The translations under genes and the position numbers were made by a program. From Acidobacteriota bacterium (lineage in GTDB: Bacteria > Acidobacteriota > Terriglobia > Acidiferrales > UBA7541), in the NCBI GenBank assembly GCA_013289585.1, contig JABCZR010000018.1, positions 1-64,000 of the forward strand: a DNA stretch of 64,000 nt, written 5' to 3'. Each line of letters starts with the position of its first letter. Position 1 is the first letter of the stretch. Shown piece by piece: positions 41,389 to 51,763 of the stretch. The notes beneath the pieces were generated by a model, which searched no databases, had not been told where the DNA came from, and saw only the letters and a list, made by a program, of their open reading frames with translations.

Positions 41389-42411
41389 ATGAATGTTTTC
41401 GAGCTAACGCGCGCACTCGTGGACATGGAGTCCATCACCAACCACGAAAAAAATGTGGGCGACTACGTTTTCGCGCACGTGTCGACGCTTGCCTCGCGCT
41501 ACGGCGGCCAGATTGAGCGGATGCCCGTCGAGCCTAATCGCGACAATCTATTTGCATGCTGGGGCGAGCCGTTGGTCACGCTTTCGACGCATATGGACAC
41601 GGTGCCGCCATTCTTCGCGTCCCTCGAGGACGGGGAATTTATTTGGGGGCGCGGATCGTGCGACGCAAAGGGCATCGTCGCGGCGATGGTTGCGGCGGCG
41701 GAAAACCTGCTCGGCGCCGGTACCCGGAATTTTGGTTTGCTTTTTGTCGTCGGCGAAGAACGCAACAGCGCGGGAGCGAGAGCTGCCGCGTCGAATCCTC
41801 GAGGCTCACGATTTCTCATTAATGGGGAGCCCACGGAGAACCGGCTGGCGCTTGGCTGCAAAGGTGCGCTGCGGTACGAGATTACGACACGAGGCAAGCT
41901 CGCGCACTCGGCTTATCCCGAGCTGGGGCATTCGGCGATCCACACTTTGCTCGATGTGCTCGACGATATTCGAAAGATCCCACTGCCGGAAGATGTTTTG
42001 CTCGGCCGAAGCACGATGAATATCGGGACGATCGAGGGCGGCCGAGCGCCGAACGTAGTTGCGGATCTTGCTGGGGCGGAGATCATGTTTCGAACGGTGG
42101 GCGATCCTGGCGGGACTCGCGAAGCGGTTTCCAAGGCAACCGCGGACCGCGCGGAAGCCCGCGAGGTGCTGCACACGCCGGCGGTGCAATTGGCAAAGTT
42201 CGAAGGTTTACCCACAACGATTGTGGCGTTCACGACGGACATTCCGACGTTTCATGGCGCCTGGGGAGAGCCGTTTCTGATTGGTCCCGGCAGCATCCAC
42301 GTGGCGCACACTTCGGAAGAGCGGATTTCAAAGAAAGAATTGTCGGAAGCGGTTGAGATTTACGCGCGGATGGTTGTGCAGCTCCTGGCGAACGGGCGGT
42401 GCGAAGCATGA
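41389..42411 (+). CDS. dapE: Succinyl-diaminopimelate desuccinylase-like M20 peptidase
   Basis: A 340-residue di-zinc enzyme, probably removing succinate from N-succinyl-LL-diaminopimelate. Metal and catalytic residues are in STHMDTVPP, GRGSCDAKG, GEERNSAGA, NGEPTE and the C-terminal HTSEERISK. Other M20 members (acetylornithine deacetylase, carboxypeptidases) look similar; the operon makes dapE most likely. Its stop overlaps dapB by 4 bp. Confidence 0.82.
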   Translation: MNVFELTRALVDMESITNHEKNVGDYVFAHVSTLASRYGGQIERMPVEPNRDNLFACWGEPLVTLSTHMDTVPPFFASLEDGEFIWGRGSCDAKGIVAAMVAAAENLLGAGTRNFGLLFVVGEERNSAGARAAASNPRGSRFLINGEPTENRLALGCKGALRYEITTRGKLAHSAYPELGHSAIHTLLDVLDDIRKIPLPEDVLLGRSTMNIGTIEGGRAPNVVADLAGAEIMFRTVGDPGGTREAVSKATADRAEAREVLHTPAVQLAKFEGLPTTIVAFTTDIPTFHGAWGEPFLIGPGSIHVAHTSEERISKKELSEAVEIYARMVVQLLANGRCEA

Positions 42412-43109
42412 GCCGAGGTCTTGCGATTGTGGGACATGGAAAGATGGGGCGGCTGATTGAACAGTTTGCGCCCGAGTACGGATTCGATGTGCGGGCAAAA
42501 TTCAGCCGCGCGGATAACCTGCATGTCGCTGCGATCAGTAGAGAATCCTTGCGTGGCGTTGATGTAGCGGTGGAATTCACAACCCCCGATGCCGCGCCGG
42601 ACAATCTGCGACGACTGGCTTCGCTTGGAATCAATTCGGTGTGCGGCACGACAGGCTGGTTCGAACATCTCCCGGCGGTCAAGGAATCCGTTCTTGCTGC
42701 CGGCACTGCACTGGCCTATAGCGCCAATTTCTCCGTGGGCGTCAACATTTTTATTCAGACGGTCACACTCGCCGCTTCGCTGTTCGCTAAATATCCAGAG
42801 TACGAAGCCTGGGGCTGGGAGATGCATCACTCCGCAAAAAAGGACGCGCCTTCCGGGACGCTGAAGAAACTTGCCGAAGAAATCCGGGCCTCCGGTTATG
42901 AACGGACACTCACGTTGACTGCAAATCGCGCGGGATCGCATCCAGGCACGCACGAAATCGGATTCGATTCCGGCGCGGACACGATCACGCTGCGGCACAC
43001 GGCGCGGAACCGCGAAGGGTTTGCGCGCGGGGCGCTGCAGGCGGCGCGATGGGCCATCGGCAAGCGCGGCGTGTACGAATTTCGCGAGATTCTGGGTGAA
43101 TTGGGGTAA
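42408..43109 (+). CDS. dapB: 4-hydroxy-tetrahydrodipicolinate reductase
   Basis: A 233-residue reductase for the second step after aspartate semialdehyde. The NAD(P) loop is LAIVGHGKMGRL, FTTPDAAPDNL and CGTTGWFEHLP follow, ANFSVGVN is present, and the catalytic EMHHSAKKDAPSGT with the His-His and Lys is intact. The 4-bp ATGA overlap with dapE fixes the start at 42408. It is shorter than E. coli DapB (273 residues) because loops are short. Confidence 0.94.
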   Translation: MSRGLAIVGHGKMGRLIEQFAPEYGFDVRAKFSRADNLHVAAISRESLRGVDVAVEFTTPDAAPDNLRRLASLGINSVCGTTGWFEHLPAVKESVLAAGTALAYSANFSVGVNIFIQTVTLAASLFAKYPEYEAWGWEMHHSAKKDAPSGTLKKLAEEIRASGYERTLTLTANRAGSHPGTHEIGFDSGADTITLRHTARNREGFARGALQAARWAIGKRGVYEFREILGELG

Positions 43110-43203
43110 CGAATCTTGTTGAAAGAAAGCTGGCTGGAGAAATTCGGGATTCAGTGATTTTCATTTTCGGCGGTTGAAATTCGATCCAGCAAGGAGAATC
43201 GCA

Positions 43204-44106
43204 ATGTTTACCGGCACGGGCACCGCGCTTGTCACTCCGTTTCGAATGGACGGTTCGCTCGACGAACCGACGCTGCGGCGATTAGTCGAGAGGCAGATCG
43301 AAGCGGGAGTCGAATTCCTGGTTCCTTGCGGAACGACGGGGGAGAGCCCAACGCTTTCGCGTGAAGAGCATCTCCGCATTGTGGAGATCACGGTGGAGAT
43401 TGCGAGGGGAAAGGTTCCCATCCTAGGCGGCGCTGGCGGGTACAACACTGCCGAAGTACTTGCGCTGGCGCGCGAGCTTGCTGGGATTGGAGTGGATGGG
43501 ATTCTGTCTGTCACTCCTTATTACAACAAGCCTACGCAGGAAGGACTGTTCCAGCACTATCGCGCGATTGCCAAGGCGATATCGCTGCCGGTCATACTTT
43601 ATAGCGTGCAGGGCCGCACTGGTGTGAACATCGAGCCCGCAACAGTGAAGCGGCTGGCGCAGATCGAAAACATCGTGGGGATCAAGGAAGCGTCGGCCAA
43701 CGTTTCGCAGATGGCTGCAATTCTGAACGCGGTTCCAGACGAATTCATAGTTCTCTCCGGAGACGATGCCATCACGCTGCCGGTTATTTCGCTGGGCGGG
43801 AGGGGAGTGATCTCGGTGGTATCGAACGAGATTCCCGCAGAGATGTCGCGGCTCACGCGCGCGGCGTTGCAGGGAGATTTCCAGACGGCGCGCGAGATAC
43901 ACCGGCGATTTCATCCGCTGATGGAAATCAATTTCGTGGAGTCGAATCCCATTCCGGTGAAGGCCGCGATGGCGGAGATGGGGTTGCTCGAGCCCGCGTG
44001 GCGCTTGCCGCTGGTGGCGCCGAAGGCGGAGAATCGAGCGCGCGTCCGGGAAGTTCTGGAATCGCTGGATCTTGCGCAGAGGGTTCATGCTGCCAACGCA
44101 AATTGA
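43204..44106 (+). CDS. dapA: 4-hydroxy-tetrahydrodipicolinate synthase
   Basis: A 300-residue aldolase joining pyruvate and aspartate semialdehyde. Motifs are GTGTALVTPF at the start, PCGTTGESPTLSREEH, VTPYYNKP, the Tyr in LYSVQGRTG (the usual NVPGRT is SVQGRT here) and the Schiff-base Lys in GIKEASAN. The start ATG 43204 follows AAGGAG. Its 3' end overlaps the start of dapD by 20 bp. Confidence 0.95.
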   Translation: MFTGTGTALVTPFRMDGSLDEPTLRRLVERQIEAGVEFLVPCGTTGESPTLSREEHLRIVEITVEIARGKVPILGGAGGYNTAEVLALARELAGIGVDGILSVTPYYNKPTQEGLFQHYRAIAKAISLPVILYSVQGRTGVNIEPATVKRLAQIENIVGIKEASANVSQMAAILNAVPDEFIVLSGDDAITLPVISLGGRGVISVVSNEIPAEMSRLTRAALQGDFQTAREIHRRFHPLMEINFVESNPIPVKAAMAEMGLLEPAWRLPLVAPKAENRARVREVLESLDLAQRVHAANAN

Positions 44107-44926
44107 GCGCTTGTTCGATGAAGCGCCCGCTCACTATGAGGAGGAACACTTCTGGCTATTCCGAGACTTCAAAGCGGGATTGAACCGGGGAGAAATTCGC
44201 GCGGCGGAGCCGGACGCCACGATGAAGTCCGGCTGGCGCGCGAACGCCTGGGTCAAGAAGGGAATACTTCTTGGTTTTCGAATGGGGGCGATCGCGGACA
44301 TGTCCGTCGATGCGACGAAGCAGCCTTTTTTCGACAAGTCTACTTATCCCGTTCGCGCTTTTACGGCGGGAGATGGCGTTCGCATTGTTCCGGGCGGGTC
44401 CAGCGTTCGCGATGGGAGCTACGTCGGGCGAGGTGTCATTTGTATGCCGCCGATGTTTGTAAATGTTGGAGCTTACGTTGGTGAAGGGACGATGATCGAT
44501 TCGCACGCGCTGGTGGGGAGTTGCGCACAGATTGGACGCAACTGCCATATTTCGGCAGGGACTCAGATCGGCGGCGTTCTTGAGCCGGTCGGAGCGCTGC
44601 CAGTCATTATTGAAGACGAAGTTTTGGCAGGTGGGAATTCCGGAGTGTATGAAGGGACGGTCGTAAAGCGCCGCGCGGTGCTGGGCACGGGGACGATTCT
44701 CAATCGGTCGATCCCAGTTTACGATTTGGTTCGCGACATGCTTTACAACGCGACGGAGACCGAGCCGTTGGTCATCCCGGAAGATGCGATTGTGGTGCCA
44801 GGTTCGCGGGCGGTCACCCATCCTTCGGGAGCAAAATGGGGGCTTTCGCTGCAGGCGGCAGTGATTGTGAAGTATCGGGATGCCAAGACGGACGCGCGCG
44901 TGCAGCTCGAAGATCTCTTGCGCTAG
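44087..44926 (+). CDS. dapD: Tetrahydrodipicolinate N-succinyltransferase
   Basis: A 279-residue left-handed beta-helix acyltransferase that makes the succinylated intermediate processed by DapE. The hexapeptide repeats are visible from GVRIVPGGSSVRDGSYVGRG to VGAYVGEGTMIDSHALVGSCAQIG, with SAGTQIGGVLEPVGA and AGGNSGVYEGTVV following. Its presence sets the succinylase branch. A 10-bp palindrome GCGCTAGCGC (44920-44929) covers the stop. The convergent HEAT gene ends 4 bp further on. Confidence 0.93.
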   Translation: MLPTQIERLFDEAPAHYEEEHFWLFRDFKAGLNRGEIRAAEPDATMKSGWRANAWVKKGILLGFRMGAIADMSVDATKQPFFDKSTYPVRAFTAGDGVRIVPGGSSVRDGSYVGRGVICMPPMFVNVGAYVGEGTMIDSHALVGSCAQIGRNCHISAGTQIGGVLEPVGALPVIIEDEVLAGGNSGVYEGTVVKRRAVLGTGTILNRSIPVYDLVRDMLYNATETEPLVIPEDAIVVPGSRAVTHPSGAKWGLSLQAAVIVKYRDAKTDARVQLEDLLR

Positions 44927-44930
44927 CGCG

Positions 44931-46046
44931 TTACTGCGTCAATACTTTTTCGAAAAAGTCCAGCGCTCGGCGATCGTGGGATTGGCCGAGCCAGAACATG
45001 GCCTGCTTTCGAACTTCGGGGTTGCGGTTGGTCTGGGCGACTTCGATCAATTTCGGGACACCTTCTTCTCGGGGCAGTTGACTCAACGCAAAGACGGCCT
45101 TCTTTTTCACTTCGGTGTCCGGATCGTTTTCGATGGCGCCGGCAATTGTGCCGACAGCTTTTTGCCCGGCTTTTTGCGCGAGCCAAAAGAGCGCCTGGCC
45201 GCGCACGTGGGCGCTCGCGTCATCGTGGGCCATTCGAATCATTTCGTCGATGGCTCCGGGTTCATGGCTGACGTAGAGCGCAAAGGCCACTTGCGCGCGC
45301 ACGTCGGAGCAGGGATCGGTTTTCGCCATTCGCAGCAAGAGGTTCAATCCTGCTTTGCCGCGCGCCGCGCCCATCCAGAATGAGGCCTGCCTCCGCAGCG
45401 CTTCTTTTTGATCGGGTGCGACGAAGGATTCGAGAGCACGGTCAGCCGACGCATCGGCGTGGAGCGCAATCGCGGTCAACGCTCCGTTGCCGAGCCCGTG
45501 GTCACCGTGACCTTCGAACGCCGCTCCGTGGACGAAAGTATCGAGTAATGCCACGCTTTCCGCAGGCTTGACACTAGTCAGCCAGACAAAGGGCAATCCG
45601 CCTGCGTCGAGCGTGCAATTTTGCGAGGCGACTCGAATCTTCACTACCTGCTTTGTTTCGAGGCGGAGGAGCACGACGAGCTGCCGCGCGCCTTCGAGTT
45701 TTATGGTGCCGCTCTTTTGCGGCCTGCCGGTTACTCTGTCATGGTCATTTTCGAGATTGCAGGTTCCGCAGCTTCCGTCATCGTGATAATTGCCGCAGCA
45801 CGCGTTGTGCTCACCGGGAATTTGATCAACGCTGTAGCCAATCCATTCCGGCTTGTCGGCTTTTGCGGCGAGTTCGCGGAAGGTTGCGTCGAGACTGCTC
45901 GTTACGGAGCGCGTTTCGAGCTCTGCGTTATCGATACGCGGCATATCGGTTGCCTGCTGTGCGCTCTGCGCGGTGGCGGTCAGCATCACTGCAAGCACAA
46001 ACTGCCCAATCAGGATTGTTCGCAGGGTTTGCACGTTGCGCCTCAC
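44931..46046 (-). CDS. Exported HEAT-repeat protein (operon gene 4)
   Basis: A 371-residue protein starting at GTG 46046, which overlaps the stop of the preceding gene by 4 bp. A signal peptide (RTILIGQFVLAVMLTATAQS) predicts export. Residues ~60-135 hold a Cys/His cluster, EHNACCGNYHDDGSCGTC, that may bind metal. The second half has four or five HEAT units such as RQASFWMGAARG, VRGQALFWLAQK and VRKQAMFWLGQS. HEAT repeats usually bind proteins. Function unknown; the last gene of the sigma/anti-sigma operon. Confidence 0.82.
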   Translation of the reverse strand: MRRNVQTLRTILIGQFVLAVMLTATAQSAQQATDMPRIDNAELETRSVTSSLDATFRELAAKADKPEWIGYSVDQIPGEHNACCGNYHDDGSCGTCNLENDHDRVTGRPQKSGTIKLEGARQLVVLLRLETKQVVKIRVASQNCTLDAGGLPFVWLTSVKPAESVALLDTFVHGAAFEGHGDHGLGNGALTAIALHADASADRALESFVAPDQKEALRRQASFWMGAARGKAGLNLLLRMAKTDPCSDVRAQVAFALYVSHEPGAIDEMIRMAHDDASAHVRGQALFWLAQKAGQKAVGTIAGAIENDPDTEVKKKAVFALSQLPREEGVPKLIEVAQTNRNPEVRKQAMFWLGQSHDRRALDFFEKVLTQ

Positions 46047-47416
46047 TTTTGCAGAAGTTCCATCAAATAGTCGGTTGCTTCCTTCGAACGCATGAGCGAC
46101 AGTTTCTGCACCGCTGCTTTCTTCAGTTCGGGGTCCTTCTCATTGCGAGCGATGGCCACAAGCGCAGCCGCGTTGCCTTGAATAAAGAAGGCGTTCAGGA
46201 CTTCTTCGTGGACGCCGCGGTCCGCGTCTTTCGAATAAATGGACTGCAACGCTTTACCGGAATCGTCGGAGTGAATAAGCCCCAGGTTGCGGACGGCGGC
46301 GCGGCGGAGTTCCGAATCTTTTTCCGATTGCGCAGCTTGCATGAGCCTGGCCGAGTCGCCCGCGAGGAAAAACGCTTGGAGAATCTCCCGTCGGACTTCC
46401 AAGGATGTCTCCATTTGGTACAACTGTTCGAGTTCACTGGTGCCGTGGACGAGGCCAAGCTGGCGGATGGCTTCGCGGCGCAACGATTCGTCCTTCTCGG
46501 ACTTCGCCGCCGCGAAAATGCGTTCGCGATCGCCGCCGATCATGTAGCTGCGGAGAATCGCGCGTTTCACGGAAGCGTCGCTGGTCGAAGCATAGACATC
46601 GGCGAGGGTTTTCCGTGATTCCGCCCCGCCGAAAATACCTAGATATTCCACAGCTTTTCGCTGCAGTTCGGGGTTGCTCTGCCCGCGCGCTATCTTTGCG
46701 AGAATCTCGCGCGCTTCAGGTCTGCCGCTCTGCGCTGCCATGAAGAGGGCGTGCGATTTCAGTTTGGGCGTCCCCGATCCATTTAGAATATTCTCCAGGA
46801 TGGAAATGCCTCGTTGCGGATCGCTGTTCATCATTCCTTGAAGCGCAAGCACTTTTAGTTCTTCGTCACTCTGATTTTCTGGATGCGCTGGGTTGCCTGT
46901 GGATTGACGCACTTCGATTTCCAGAGCGCTGGCATCTTTTTGCCAGCGGCTTTGCGGAAAGCGCTTCTTCAGGTCGGCGATGGTGGCGAGCGCGGTGTCG
47001 CGTTTGCCCATTCTGTTTTCCGCGTAGGCTTTCCAGTAGAGTGCCGCGTCGGTCTGCGGGCCGTTCATTTCAGCGAGTTGCTTGAATTTGGATTCTGCCT
47101 GGTCGTAGCGGTCCTCGTCGAGGTTCTCGCGGCCGTCGTCATACAATTCCTGCAAGCGATCAGCCCGGTCCTGCGCGCGGTCACGTGCTTCCTGTTCACG
47201 ATCCCGTTTTTCTTCTGCTCTGTCGCGAGCTTCCTGCTCGCGGTCGCGCTTCTCTTGCGCTTTGTCCTGGGCCTCCTGTGGGTCCTGCAGATATTCTGCG
47301 GGCTGCAACCGCGCTGCTGCGAGCCGATGCGCGCGCGAGCCTGCGGGCGACAACAGGAGCGCCGTGATGGCAATGCAGGCGATGTTCGTCATTCGAAAGG
47401 GATTTCCGATGGTCAT
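46043..47416 (-). CDS. Exported HEAT-repeat protein with charged coiled coil (operon gene 3)
   Basis: A 457-residue protein with an N-terminal signal (NIACIAITALLLSPAGSRA), then a highly charged coiled coil of EKRDREQEARDRA-type units (~50-95), a TPR-like pair (~95-165: YWKAYAENRMGKRDTALA) and about eight HEAT units (~185-455) such as LRREAIRQLGLVHG, LRRAAVRNLGLIHS and LKKAAVQKLSLMRS. It overlaps both neighbours by 4 bp, so translation is coupled. No enzymatic motif. A periplasmic scaffold or sensor is an inference. Confidence 0.83.
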   Translation of the reverse strand: MTIGNPFRMTNIACIAITALLLSPAGSRAHRLAAARLQPAEYLQDPQEAQDKAQEKRDREQEARDRAEEKRDREQEARDRAQDRADRLQELYDDGRENLDEDRYDQAESKFKQLAEMNGPQTDAALYWKAYAENRMGKRDTALATIADLKKRFPQSRWQKDASALEIEVRQSTGNPAHPENQSDEELKVLALQGMMNSDPQRGISILENILNGSGTPKLKSHALFMAAQSGRPEAREILAKIARGQSNPELQRKAVEYLGIFGGAESRKTLADVYASTSDASVKRAILRSYMIGGDRERIFAAAKSEKDESLRREAIRQLGLVHGTSELEQLYQMETSLEVRREILQAFFLAGDSARLMQAAQSEKDSELRRAAVRNLGLIHSDDSGKALQSIYSKDADRGVHEEVLNAFFIQGNAAALVAIARNEKDPELKKAAVQKLSLMRSKEATDYLMELLQK

Positions 47417-48204
47417 ACCTTGTTCCTTTCCTTCTTCGCGGAGTCGTTTTGCGCCGGCGCAGGCTGCGATGCCTCTTGCCGTTGTTGCAATTCCTTGCCG
47501 ACCACCCGGACTTCGAACAGAATTCCTCGCGCTTCGATCTTCTGGCGAATGGCTTCGAGTTGTTTCGGAGTGACCTCCGAAGGGCTGTGGGCTACGTCCA
47601 GGAGCACGCGCTCGAGATCGTCCAGCACGTTGGCGAGGCCAGCGTCACCCTCTTGCAGCGCGGTCTGCCGGTACATGCGATTTTCTTCGAGCAGATCCTC
47701 AGCGCGCCGCTGTTCGGCGGAAATATTCACTTGTTTCTGCGCTGGATCGCTAGGCCCGGCGTTCGAAAGCTCGACGAGCATCCGCTCGGAGTGGCCCAGG
47801 TGTTCGCCGACGGCAACGATCAATACACGTTCGCGGACTTGTTCTCTGCTCGCGATGTTGTCAACACCGTGGTCTCTCCTGCTCATGCGCCCAGCGAGGA
47901 ACGCGGCGATAATCAGTGCCGCAACGGCAGCCAACGCCACCAGACGCCGCGGGGCCATCCACATCTGCCACCATCGTCCACGTTTTTCCGGCAAGCGCGG
48001 CCCGATTTGCTGCCAGACGTGCCGGCCATAATCGGCTCCGGGGTCGGGCACCGGGAGCGTATCCAGCGCGGAAAGAACGGCTTCAATGCGCTCCATCTCG
48101 GCGCGGCACTCTTCGCAGGCCGCGAGATGATCCGAAATCGCAGCGCGCTGCTCCGCGATTCCCTCGCGATATGCAATCAACTGTTCTTCGGTCATGTGAT
48201 TCAT
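47413..48204 (-). CDS. Zinc-finger anti-sigma factor, membrane-anchored (operon gene 2)
   Basis: A 263-residue protein with a zinc-finger anti-sigma domain (HLAACEEC, His-x3-Cys-x2-Cys, about residues 26-33), one membrane helix (RRLVALAAVAALIIAAFLAG, ~105-125) and an extracytoplasmic helical part with LLEENRMYRQTALQ and LDDLERVLLDVA, which looks like a coiled coil. It should hold the adjacent sigma factor at the membrane until a signal. ATG 48204 overlaps the sigma stop by 4 bp (ATGA); the frame is open to 48360, but that stretch lies inside the sigma gene. Confidence 0.85.
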   Translation of the reverse strand: MNHMTEEQLIAYREGIAEQRAAISDHLAACEECRAEMERIEAVLSALDTLPVPDPGADYGRHVWQQIGPRLPEKRGRWWQMWMAPRRLVALAAVAALIIAAFLAGRMSRRDHGVDNIASREQVRERVLIVAVGEHLGHSERMLVELSNAGPSDPAQKQVNISAEQRRAEDLLEENRMYRQTALQEGDAGLANVLDDLERVLLDVAHSPSEVTPKQLEAIRQKIEARGILFEVRVVGKELQQRQEASQPAPAQNDSAKKERNKV

Positions 48205-48848
48205 GATTCCGTTCCCATCGCGCGAGCCTGTATTTTTGTCCCCACCATCGGTTCCAGTGCGAGCCGTAACTTCTGCACGGCGCGAAAAACGGTGTTCTTC
48301 GCTGCGCCGGAATTCGATTTCAAGACTACGGCGATCTCCTCGATGCCGCAGCCTTCCCAATGGCGCATCACGAATGCGGTTCGTTCCGCGTGCGAAAGAG
48401 CGGCAAGCGCCTGTTCCATCTGTTTGCGCAGCTCGAGACTTTGCGTCAGTCGCTCGGGAGTTGGCGCATCGTCCGCAACACGATTCATGGGATCGTCTTC
48501 CACTCCTTCCGCGCGGGGCGGTTCTCGCCGCGCGTCTTCTTTCTGCCTCTGGCGCATACGGTCAATGGCATAGTTGGCGGCGATGCGATAGACCCAAGTT
48601 CCGAAGTTCGCGCGCGCTTCGAATTGACCGAGTTTTTGATACGCTCGCAGAAACGCCTCCTGGACGACTTCTTCCGCATCTTGCCGGTTCCCGGTCATGC
48701 GGTAGGCCAGCCGAAAAACATTTTGGCTGTGCCGCTCGACAAGAACACGAAAGGCATCGCGCTCACCCGCGAGAGTGCGCTCGACGGCGAGGGCGTCGCT
48801 TGTGGCGATGGCCTGGGCATTCTCGATGCTCTGTTGCATCCGATTCAT
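48201..48848 (-). CDS. ECF-type RNA polymerase sigma factor (operon gene 1)
   Basis: A 215-residue sigma-70 family protein with regions 2 and 4 only. Region 2: RLAYRMTGNRQDAEEVVQEA, then YRIAANYAIDRMRQR; region 4: LSHAERTAFVMRHWEGCGIE, ending in NTVFRAVQKLRLAL. The ~45-residue linker is acidic. It is the first gene of a four-gene operon and likely autoregulates it. The start is ATG 48848; ATG four codons later is possible. The region upstream (48849-49020) was not found to contain a clear ECF-type -35. Confidence 0.9.
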   Translation of the reverse strand: MNRMQQSIENAQAIATSDALAVERTLAGERDAFRVLVERHSQNVFRLAYRMTGNRQDAEEVVQEAFLRAYQKLGQFEARANFGTWVYRIAANYAIDRMRQRQKEDARREPPRAEGVEDDPMNRVADDAPTPERLTQSLELRKQMEQALAALSHAERTAFVMRHWEGCGIEEIAVVLKSNSGAAKNTVFRAVQKLRLALEPMVGTKIQARAMGTES

Positions 48849-48954
48849 TAGACAGGATTCGAGGGTTGCGGTTAGGTCTGGGTTACGGCCTTATCTGGCA
48901 ACAAGATAGCGCAGATCAGGGATTCGACAAGGAAGAAGGATGTGATGTGGTGAG

Positions 48955-49020: not shown

Positions 49021-51681
49021 CTACTCGTAGCGCAGGGCGACAATTGGATCAACTCGCATGGCACGACGTGCAGGGACGTAGCAAGCGACGAGTGCGACGA
49101 CGGTCAAGACAATGGCTACTACGGCGAAGGTGAGGGGGTCGGTGGCCTTCACTCCGAATAGCAGGTTGGCCATCAGGTGGGTCAATCCGAGGGAGATGAT
49201 CACGCCGACGCCTACACCGATTACCGTCATCTTCATGCCTTCGCTGAAGACCATGCGCAACACATCACCACGCTTTGCGCCGAGAGCTATGCGGATTCCG
49301 ATTTCGCGCGTGCGCTGGCCGACGAGATAGGAAATCACGCCGTAGATTCCCATGCTCGCCAATCCCAGCGCGAGCGCCGCGAAAACTCCTAGTACAATCA
49401 TGGAAAAACGGCGTTCGGCGAGCGTGTCCGCGATGACTTCTTCCATGGTCTGGACTTCATACATCACCTGGTCGCTGCTCATGTTTCGAAGGCTAGAGCG
49501 AATGGCTGTCGTGACTGCCTGGGGATCTCCTTCGAAGCGCACCAGCACCCCGGTGCCGCTCCAGGAGGATGGCTGCATGGCGGCTTCTGGCAGCTGCATG
49601 AAAGGAAAATATAGCTGGGCGCGAAGCGATTGCTTTTCGTCTGAATCGAGTCCCCACTGCTTGACGTGGCCTACCACGCCGACGATCTCCGCTACGCCGC
49701 CTTTGCTATTTAGAATCACGCGCTTTCCAATGGGGTCCTGATTGCCAAAGAATTTACGGGCGAAGACGTCATCCACGACGATGACATGCGGAGAGCGTTC
49801 ATTATCCTGCGCTGTAAGGAATCGCCCGCGCTGGAGTGGAATCCCCATTACCTTCAGGTAGTCCTCTTGCACGACATAACTGAGCGCCCAGCTCATGTCG
49901 TTCTCGCTTGATGGTTTGGGTTGGCCTTCGAGGTAGAAGAGATCTTCATCGTCCACCGAGAGCGGCACCGCTCCCCAGGAAAGCGAAGCGGCCTGCACTC
50001 CCGGAGTCGCTGCCAGCGTGCTTTGGAGCTGGCGGAGTTTCGCGCGAACCGAGTCGGTGTTTGCGTCTTTCGGAGACGGGGCAAGAGCCACACCAAACGA
50101 CAAAACGTTGTGAGAGTCAAAGCCGGGGTCCACGCCCCAGAGAGCACTGAGGCTGCGGATCATCAATCCCGCGGCGATAAGAAGCACCAAAGCCATGGCC
50201 ATTTCCGCAACGACAAAAATTCCTTGTGCGCGATGCCTGGCTCCGCCGGAGCCGCGGCCTCCTTCTTTCAGCGTCTCCTGCAGGTTTGGTCTGGAGATTC
50301 TCAACGCAGGCGTTAAACCAAAAAGAATTCCGCAGAGCAGGGCCACCGTCATTGTGAATACCAAGACGCGGGCGTCCAAGCCGACTTCAACGGCGCGCGG
50401 TAACGCGGAGGGCAGATGGCGGAGAGCGGCCTTAGTGCCCCAGGCCGCAAAAAGCAAACCAAGGAATCCGCCGGCTAACGCGAGAATGAGGCTCTCCGTC
50501 AGAAGCTGGCGAACGATTCGCAGTCGCCCGGCGCCAAGTGCAGCACGGACTGCGAATTCGCGCGCGCGCCCGGTCGAGCGGGCCACGAGCAGGTTTGCCA
50601 CGTTCACGCAAGCAATCAAGAGCACGAAGCCCACTGCCGCGAGCAGGACGAGCAGAATCGGGCGCAAGTAGCCAACCATCTGTTCTTTGAGAGGCATCAG
50701 TGTCGCGCCGATTCCCGTGTCGGCGTCGGGATAAGCTGAGGTCAAATCGGCCGTGACGCGCTTCATGTCGGCTCGCGCTTGCTGAATGGTTACGCCCGGC
50801 TTTAGGCGGCCAATGCCATGGAAGCCAAGTCCTGCCGCGCGGATAGGAAGCAGCGGATTCGTCCACTGGCCGACAGGGGCATACACATCGCTGGCGCGGA
50901 AGCTCACGATTTGCAGCTTAAGACTTGCCGGAACGACGCCGACGATGGTGAACGTTCGCCCGTCGAGAGTGAGTCCTTGGCCGACGATGTCCGGGGCGCC
51001 GCCAAATTTTCGGTTCCATAGTCCTTCACTGATCAGGACGATGGGACTTGCGCCGATCTCGTCTTCGCCGTCTGCGAACAGGCGCCCAATCACCGGCTTG
51101 ACGCCGAGGAGCGTCAGGAAGTCTGACGATACGAATTCCGCTCTGACTTGTTCCGCATCGCCCTTGCCGGTCAAGTTGTACGAGTAGCTCCGGGAAACAC
51201 CCATCATGGAAAACGTGCGGTTATCCCTGCACCAGTCGCGAAAATTCGGAAAGGAGATGGAACCACTGTCAAAATTGGATTTGCTCTCATCCAAGGTCAC
51301 GAGCCGATCCGGTTCCGGATAGGGCAAAGAGTTCAGCAGCACTCCATTGACTACGGAGAAGAGAGCAGTGTTTGCGCCAATTCCGAGCGCGAGGGTCAGA
51401 ATCGCGACGGCTGCAAAGCCCGGCGACTTCGCCAGCATGCGCAATCCGAAACGCAGGTCCTGCGTCAGACGCTCGACTGAACCCCAACTCCACACGTCAC
51501 GCGTTACTTCCTTGACGAGACTGACATTTCCAAACTCACGCCGCGCCGCGCGCGCTGCTTCCCGGTGATCTTCGCCGCGTTCCGCACGGTCCTGCGCGGC
51601 CATCTCCAGATGGCTACGTACTTCTTCTTCGAGTTCCGTCTCTTGCTTCCGCCTGCGGAAAAGGCCACTCAGCCAGCTCAT
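49021..51681 (-). CDS. ADOP-type ABC transporter permease, third of array
   Basis: An ~886-residue permease. The N-terminal acidic helical region is [20 protein letters not shown] with [15 protein letters not shown], then two MacB/FtsX units: [20 protein letters not shown], a periplasmic domain up to ~350, NVANLLVARSTGRAREFAVR, and a second unit ending VGQRTREIGIRIALGA and [20 protein letters not shown]. No ATPase is encoded near it. ATG 51681 is preferred because GGAG lies five bases upstream; ATG 51696 is also in frame. Last gene of the PadR-led array. Confidence 0.9.
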   Translation of the reverse strand: MSWLSGLFRRRKQETELEEEVRSHLEMAAQDRAERGEDHREAARAARREFGNVSLVKEVTRDVWSWGSVERLTQDLRFGLRMLAKSPGFAAVAILTLALGIGANTALFSVVNGVLLNSLPYPEPDRLVTLDESKSNFDSGSISFPNFRDWCRDNRTFSMMGVSRSYSYNLTGKGDAEQVRAEFVSSDFLTLLGVKPVIGRLFADGEDEIGASPIVLISEGLWNRKFGGAPDIVGQGLTLDGRTFTIVGVVPASLKLQIVSFRASDVYAPVGQWTNPLLPIRAAGLGFHGIGRLKPGVTIQQARADMKRVTADLTSAYPDADTGIGATLMPLKEQMVGYLRPILLVLLAAVGFVLLIACVNVANLLVARSTGRAREFAVRAALGAGRLRIVRQLLTESLILALAGGFLGLLFAAWGTKAALRHLPSALPRAVEVGLDARVLVFTMTVALLCGILFGLTPALRISRPNLQETLKEGGRGSGGARHRAQGIFVVAEMAMALVLLIAAGLMIRSLSALWGVDPGFDSHNVLSFGVALAPSPKDANTDSVRAKLRQLQSTLAATPGVQAASLSWGAVPLSVDDEDLFYLEGQPKPSSENDMSWALSYVVQEDYLKVMGIPLQRGRFLTAQDNERSPHVIVVDDVFARKFFGNQDPIGKRVILNSKGGVAEIVGVVGHVKQWGLDSDEKQSLRAQLYFPFMQLPEAAMQPSSWSGTGVLVRFEGDPQAVTTAIRSSLRNMSSDQVMYEVQTMEEVIADTLAERRFSMIVLGVFAALALGLASMGIYGVISYLVGQRTREIGIRIALGAKRGDVLRMVFSEGMKMTVIGVGVGVIISLGLTHLMANLLFGVKATDPLTFAVVAIVLTVVALVACYVPARRAMRVDPIVALRYE

Positions 51682-51763
51682 TGCGACTCCGTCCATTTTT
51701 CACAGTCCCAATTTCTGATTGCCATTTTCTACTCATACCTCAGCGCCACGATAGGATCGACCC
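51599..51763. repeat. 165-bp direct repeat, copy A, at permease 2/permease 3 junction
   Basis: It covers the end of permease 2, the spacer and the start of permease 3. It is near-identical to 54271-54435, at a constant offset of 2672 bp. In the last 94 bp I count about nine differences by eye. The spacer itself, including ATTTCTGATTGCCATTTTCT, is nearly invariant. Confidence 0.75.

Follow-up and report, generated by a model that had tools for sequence, protein, structure and literature searches.

A probable autoregulated ECF sigma factor switch with a predicted exported pair of HEAT-repeat proteins as its output in Acidobacteriota

The four-gene locus and the closest described systems

In the SigW/RsiW system of Bacillus subtilis, the SigW regulon is broad, and the anti-sigma factor RsiW combines a zinc motif with one membrane helix. 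In the RpoE-RseA-RseB system of E. coli, RseB has a LolA-like beta fold and is not a HEAT protein. The E. coli system is encoded by an autoregulated ECF operon, in which the sigma gene is accompanied by genes for a membrane-bound anti-sigma factor and for a protein of the periplasm (PMC8103513).

Soils are rich in Acidobacteriota, which are difficult to grow in the laboratory, and their sensing of envelope damage is little known. The window analysed in this study, a stretch of 64,000 nucleotides from an Acidobacteriota genome, contains four ORFs on the minus strand at 44931-48848, which encode a sigma factor, an anti-sigma factor, and two HEAT-repeat proteins (designated H1 and H2); these coordinates were confirmed. 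The anti-sigma factor has the zinc motif and the single membrane helix in common with RsiW, whereas its extracytoplasmic domain is different and dedicated HEAT partners are encoded in its operon. The locus likewise resembles RpoE-RseA-RseB as an autoregulated ECF operon with genes for a membrane anti-sigma factor and for predicted exported proteins; however, the partners are HEAT solenoids, and an exact-pattern search detected no broad regulon. Neither H1 nor H2 matched the RseB family in searches of Pfam, NCBIfam, and PDB. The locus would operate as an autoregulated switch of the RsiW/RseA type with periplasmic partners, but differs from such switches in its HEAT solenoid partners and its apparently minimal regulon.

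H1 is similar in its N-terminal TPR region to the periplasmic TPR proteins BamD and CpoB/YbgF, from which it differs by an added HEAT solenoid and by predicted sigma control. Both HEAT proteins are related to the HEAT families (HEAT_2, HEAT_PBS; CpcE/CpcF, NblB) through HEAT_2 matches and, for H2, through fold matches to designed alphaRep and to CpcE/CpcF, whereas the proteins studied here are predicted to be exported, include a beta-rich cap (in H2), and lack a phycobilisome-lyase context. No description of an ECF/HEAT system was found in the open papers searched, and the system may correspond to a numbered group in the 2021 ECF reclassification. A 'SigW' of Granulicella sp. WH15 was induced by high sugar in a transcriptome study (PMC7074687). 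No link between that gene and the HEAT operon was established.

Gene products and conservation of the operon

The sigma ORF (48848-48201, minus strand) was annotated as 215 aa starting from ATG 48848. Pfam analysis indicated Sigma70_r2 (2.9e-21) and r4_2 (2.1e-11) and no other sigma region, and a protein of about 200 aa with sigma2 and sigma4 only is an ECF (group IV) sigma factor. The sequence also scored well with SigW models, below their cut-off. The adjoining anti-sigma gene (47413..48204, minus strand; 263 aa) overlaps the sigma gene by the 4 bp of an ATGA (48201..48204). Its product carries an HxxxCxxC zinc motif at residues 26-33 (48106..48129), located by alignment of the homologues, and H3, H26, C30, and C33 were conserved in 97-100% of 38 homologues (97% for H26, C30, and C33). 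A membrane helix was placed at residues 85-108 (47881..47952) by an AlphaFold helix of the same extent and by hydropathy, and a similar hydrophobic segment was present in 35 of the 38 homologues. This helix is followed by a conserved helical-bundle domain, predicted to be extracytoplasmic, at residues 117-246 (47467..47856; alignment, model pLDDT of 86.9). A profile search against PDB retrieved RsiW (5wuq, E=8.5e-5); the family models zf-HC2 (Pfam, E 0.09) and NF052375 (NCBIfam, 3.7e-8) were below threshold, and a fold search of PDB with the model gave no match at E<=0.001. With its N-terminal Hx3Cx2C domain, the ATGA overlap with the sigma gene, and the RsiW match, the protein is predicted to be a class I (zinc-motif) anti-sigma factor, which would bind and inhibit its cognate sigma factor. 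The sequence-only reading had proposed exported HEAT proteins behind an anti-sigma factor in the membrane; the HxxxCxxC motif, the one membrane helix, and the RsiW match agree with this, and export of the HEAT proteins is predicted as described below.

H1 (46043..47416, minus strand; 457 aa) overlaps the anti-sigma gene by ATGA (47413..47416) and consists of TPR and HEAT regions, which form its conserved body (Pfam: TPR, and HEAT_2 at 4e-25). Profile matches of the N-terminal TPR region were to BamD (5.9e-9), YbgF (4e-4), and CpoB (1e-3). The score with the BamD model TIGR03302 was 19.3 against a cut-off of 81.4, so that H1 is not assigned to BamD, and H1 was also far under the curated YbgF cut-off. 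Reading of the sequence revealed no lipobox Cys in the signal region of the H1 in the window. No H1 paralogue was found in the same genome apart from a weak similarity to H2. A charged coil near the N terminus, which had earlier been taken as a key feature of H1, occurs in some lineages only and is not conserved.

H2 (44931..46046, minus strand; 371 aa) overlaps H1 by GTGA (46043..46046) and consists of a beta-rich N-terminal cap (residues ~36-160) followed by a C-terminal HEAT solenoid (HEAT_2 at 2e-18; model pLDDT of 88.5, pTM of 0.83). The conserved parts are a cap motif around W68-x-G-Y, a C-x-L-D-A-G-G stretch, and the HEAT repeats. In PDB, the H2 model matched only repeat proteins of the HEAT/ARM type, CpcE/CpcF among them, and designs (alphaRep). 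The fold search against PDB gave nothing that explains the cap, which lies outside every Pfam match, and the cap is novel. Hydrophobic N termini were found in 35/35 H2 and 26/41 H1 sequences, and neither protein has a later membrane helix; from these features we infer that H1 and H2 are exported.

The overlaps of 4 bp at all three junctions (ATGA, ATGA, and GTGA) were confirmed. Across the loci, only the sigma/anti-sigma overlap was widely kept (92/123 loci), compared with 51/122 for anti-sigma/H1 and 48/114 for H1/H2. Since two of the junction overlaps are kept in fewer loci, overlap at all three junctions does not define the system and gives no information on stoichiometry. The overlaps indicate probable co-transcription and coupling, and the fixed stoichiometry that had been predicted from them was not upheld. 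Convergent to the operon, the window contains lysine/DAP pathway genes for a DapB-like protein, DapA, and DapD (42399-44926, plus strand), with the DapD stop 5 bp from that of H2; the DapA/DapD synteny was present in the locus of a congener (L062) and absent from the other fetched loci. A gene for a duplicated permease of the ADOP family (49021-51696, minus strand; NCBIfam, 3e-289) precedes the operon in the same orientation. This permease was rejected as a fifth operon gene: related permeases were present in just 7/40 loci, in either orientation.

Across the class, 299 genomes were used to assess how far the module is conserved. H1 was found in 101 genomes besides that of the window and the anti-sigma factor in 100, all of which also had H1; the two genes thus occur together in 100 of 101 carrier genomes. 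H2 was found in 88 genomes, 84 of them with H1. As H2 was undetected in 17 of the 101 H1-bearing genomes, H2 is either not strictly required or diverged beyond detection. The order sigma-anti-sigma-H1-H2 was kept, with few exceptions, in 40 loci from many families and in 36 further loci throughout the phylum, and both order and strand were the same in all 114 complete quartets among the distinct loci of the phylum. No flanking gene family was widely common to the loci, and the neighbours turned over. The neighbourhood conservation on which the sequence-only reading had made its proposal depend was thus found, and the co-occurrence of the anti-sigma factor and H1, the invariant order, and a phylum-wide promoter support a functional four-gene module.

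Several loci deviated from this pattern. Divergent sigma-anti-sigma-HEAT modules were present in other classes of Acidobacteriota (L212, L217-L220, L226, L229-L231, L236, and L237); most of them lack the exact promoter, L217, L218, and L237 have the variant CCAAC...GTCTAA, and these modules may represent a sister system. In L066 (8741-10116, with an anti-sigma-like gene) and in L079 (6492-7103), a further and more distant ECF sigma gene lies near the quartet. Three MAGs titled Betaproteobacteria, Verrucomicrobia, and Zixiibacteriota (L115, L133, and L174) carry module genes of the acidobacterial type, and these records are probably misnamed or contaminated.

Autogenous promoter and its occurrence in the genomes

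A bipartite motif search was conducted over 118 distinct regions upstream of the sigma gene, with shuffled sequence as the control. The top signal was CTAAC-N17-GTCT, the best sub-motif occurring in 35 loci compared with 4 for shuffled sequence, and TAAC-N16-18-GTC was present in 101 of the 118 regions, phylum-wide. An AAC-type -35 box and a GTC-type -10 box in an autogenous promoter are characteristic of ECF sigma factors. In the window, the putative promoter is CTAACCG-N15-GTCTAA (48848..48875, minus strand), with the -35 box CTAACCG at 48875-48869 and the -10 box GTCTAA at 48853-48848. In 88/115 loci, a spacing of 7-9 nt separated the -10 box from the sigma start codon; given the usual distance of initiation from the box, this implies that the sigma mRNA would be leaderless or nearly so. 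Because ATG 48848 overlaps the -10 box, the start of the sigma factor in the window is likely ATG 48839 (sigma gene at 48201..48839, with Sigma70 r2 and r4).

The genome of the window contained one exact match to CTAAC-N17-GTCTAA, that of its own operon, and the matches with one mismatch were mostly within or antisense to ORFs and included no convincing targets. Nine genomes of the genus each had their own promoter match, with three extra matches in total. In 30 genomes of a Bryobacteraceae-type family (f7), 29 exact matches to TAACCG-N15-GTCTAA were observed: 22 at the sigma gene, four before separated HEAT pairs, and three elsewhere, so that 26 of the 29 belong to the sigma operon or to split-off HEAT genes. 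In G069, G252, G282, and G285, the promoter is directly upstream of the separated HEAT genes, and where the HEAT genes have separated, the sigma-anti-sigma-H1 part is elsewhere in the genome. A genome of another class (G525) has a lone H2 with the promoter and sigma-anti-sigma-H1 on another contig. The promoter was present in 29/40 genomes with the quartet compared with 3/111 others (p=9e-19), and the presence of this putative promoter is dependent on the module. The reversed motif, used as a control, gave more matches than the motif itself, and the matches were hence judged by position and not by number; the excess plausibly arises from stop codons in the motif, which would deplete it in coding DNA. 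Read together, these data show the four genes as one predicted transcription unit with one autogenous promoter, and the HEAT genes as predicted targets of the sigma factor even after relocation.

The sites outside the module were few and lineage-specific, and many precede exported or envelope proteins. The genes that follow them encode an exported TPR protein, DUF4097 and BON proteins, an outer membrane beta-barrel, an amidohydrolase, and a beta-lactamase-fold protein; some sites were common to two genomes (G135/G155 and G127/G167). A perfect copy of the promoter (L287, 1968-1995, plus strand) was found in G117, a genome with no detectable anti-sigma factor or H1, and may mark a decayed sigma gene. 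G233 has two copies 11 kb apart (L302 and L297; C4:2116036 and 2127124), the second of which precedes a small exported protein without a Pfam match.

Output and sensor roles of the HEAT proteins

We consider it probable that the locus is an autoregulated, self-contained ECF switch whose conserved output is the pair of exported HEAT-repeat proteins. By analogy with class I anti-sigma factors, the membrane zinc-motif protein would hold the sigma factor when there is no signal, and a signal at its extracytoplasmic helical domain would release it. The free sigma factor would then direct the synthesis of one leaderless transcript covering all four genes, which would amplify the switch, restore the brake, and fill the periplasm with H1 and H2. 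The BamD/CpoB-like TPR region, the HEAT solenoid, and the predicted location suggest that H1 and H2 could serve as an envelope scaffold or chaperone, and H1 might also feed back on the anti-sigma factor. Since the promoter is located at the sigma operon and at split HEAT genes, the HEAT genes appear to be the main conserved output of the sigma factor. Most genomes have no other strong target, so the effector is expected to be H1, H2, or both. The periplasmic sensing or scaffold unit proposed from the sequence to release the sigma factor stands as a module, whereas the promoter evidence moves the HEAT proteins from upstream of sigma release to its output.

A reading that places the HEAT proteins primarily as sensors or co-anti-sigma factors, with H1, alone or with H2, binding the anti-sigma factor at its extracytoplasmic domain and controlling release, appears rather unlikely to us. 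It has a precedent in E. coli RseB, a product of the rpoE operon that binds RseA at its periplasmic domain (PMC8103513), and it accords with the all-or-none occurrence of the anti-sigma factor and H1 (100/101). The distances of the extracytoplasmic domain also showed a modest residual correlation with those of H1 (partial r of 0.29 vs 0.08 for H2); however, this mirror-tree signal is weak, confounded by phylogeny, and at most suggestive of a link between H1 and the anti-sigma factor. Against it, HEAT pairs with this promoter also occur at sites remote from the anti-sigma gene, and a switch with HEAT proteins acting purely in feedback would control nothing in genomes where its own promoter is the only strong one. 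A sensing or feedback role, especially of H1, is possible beside the output role. It is also conceivable, if on balance doubtful, that a wider envelope-stress regulon with degenerate promoters exists, of which the HEAT operon is the conserved core, the sigma factor being a general stress factor similar to SigW/RpoE. The RsiW-like anti-sigma factor and the extra exact sites before exported or envelope proteins, some of them common to two genomes, are consistent with this, and our exact-pattern search misses weaker sites, so that the regulon may be larger than detected; yet the extra sites are few and lineage-specific, with none in the genome of the window and most of its relatives.

Two other explanations are far less probable. 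H2 as a metal or redox sensor through its Cys/His cluster was suggested by the CCGNYHDDGSCGTC cluster of the copy in the window; this Cys cluster is present in some lineages only and is missing from many homologues that keep the operon (e.g., L080, L081, L090, and L091), which makes such a function very improbable and removes the cluster as a key feature of H2. That inheritance alone keeps the four genes adjacent, with no functional link, is scarcely credible: the ancestry common to members of one phylum would favour adjacency, but the flanking genes are unconserved while the order is invariant in the 114 quartets, and the promoter travels with the HEAT genes on relocation. As judged from the genomes, this explanation is already contradicted by the quartet order and the promoter distribution.

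Returning to the switch with a HEAT-protein output, we propose only tentatively, and with considerable doubt, that it forms a closed envelope-homeostasis loop across Acidobacteriota, in which the HEAT pair would be the sole essential output and H1 would also be the sensor gating the anti-sigma factor. With a detectable regulon close to its own operon, the purpose of the sigma factor must reside in the co-travelling genes, and this makes it directly testable what the two predicted exported HEAT proteins, so far unstudied, do. The system is phylum-wide, with a defined promoter, few targets, and orthologues in cultured strains, among them Edaphobacter modestus DSM 18101 and Acidobacteriaceae TAA 166 (quartets in L163 and L180).
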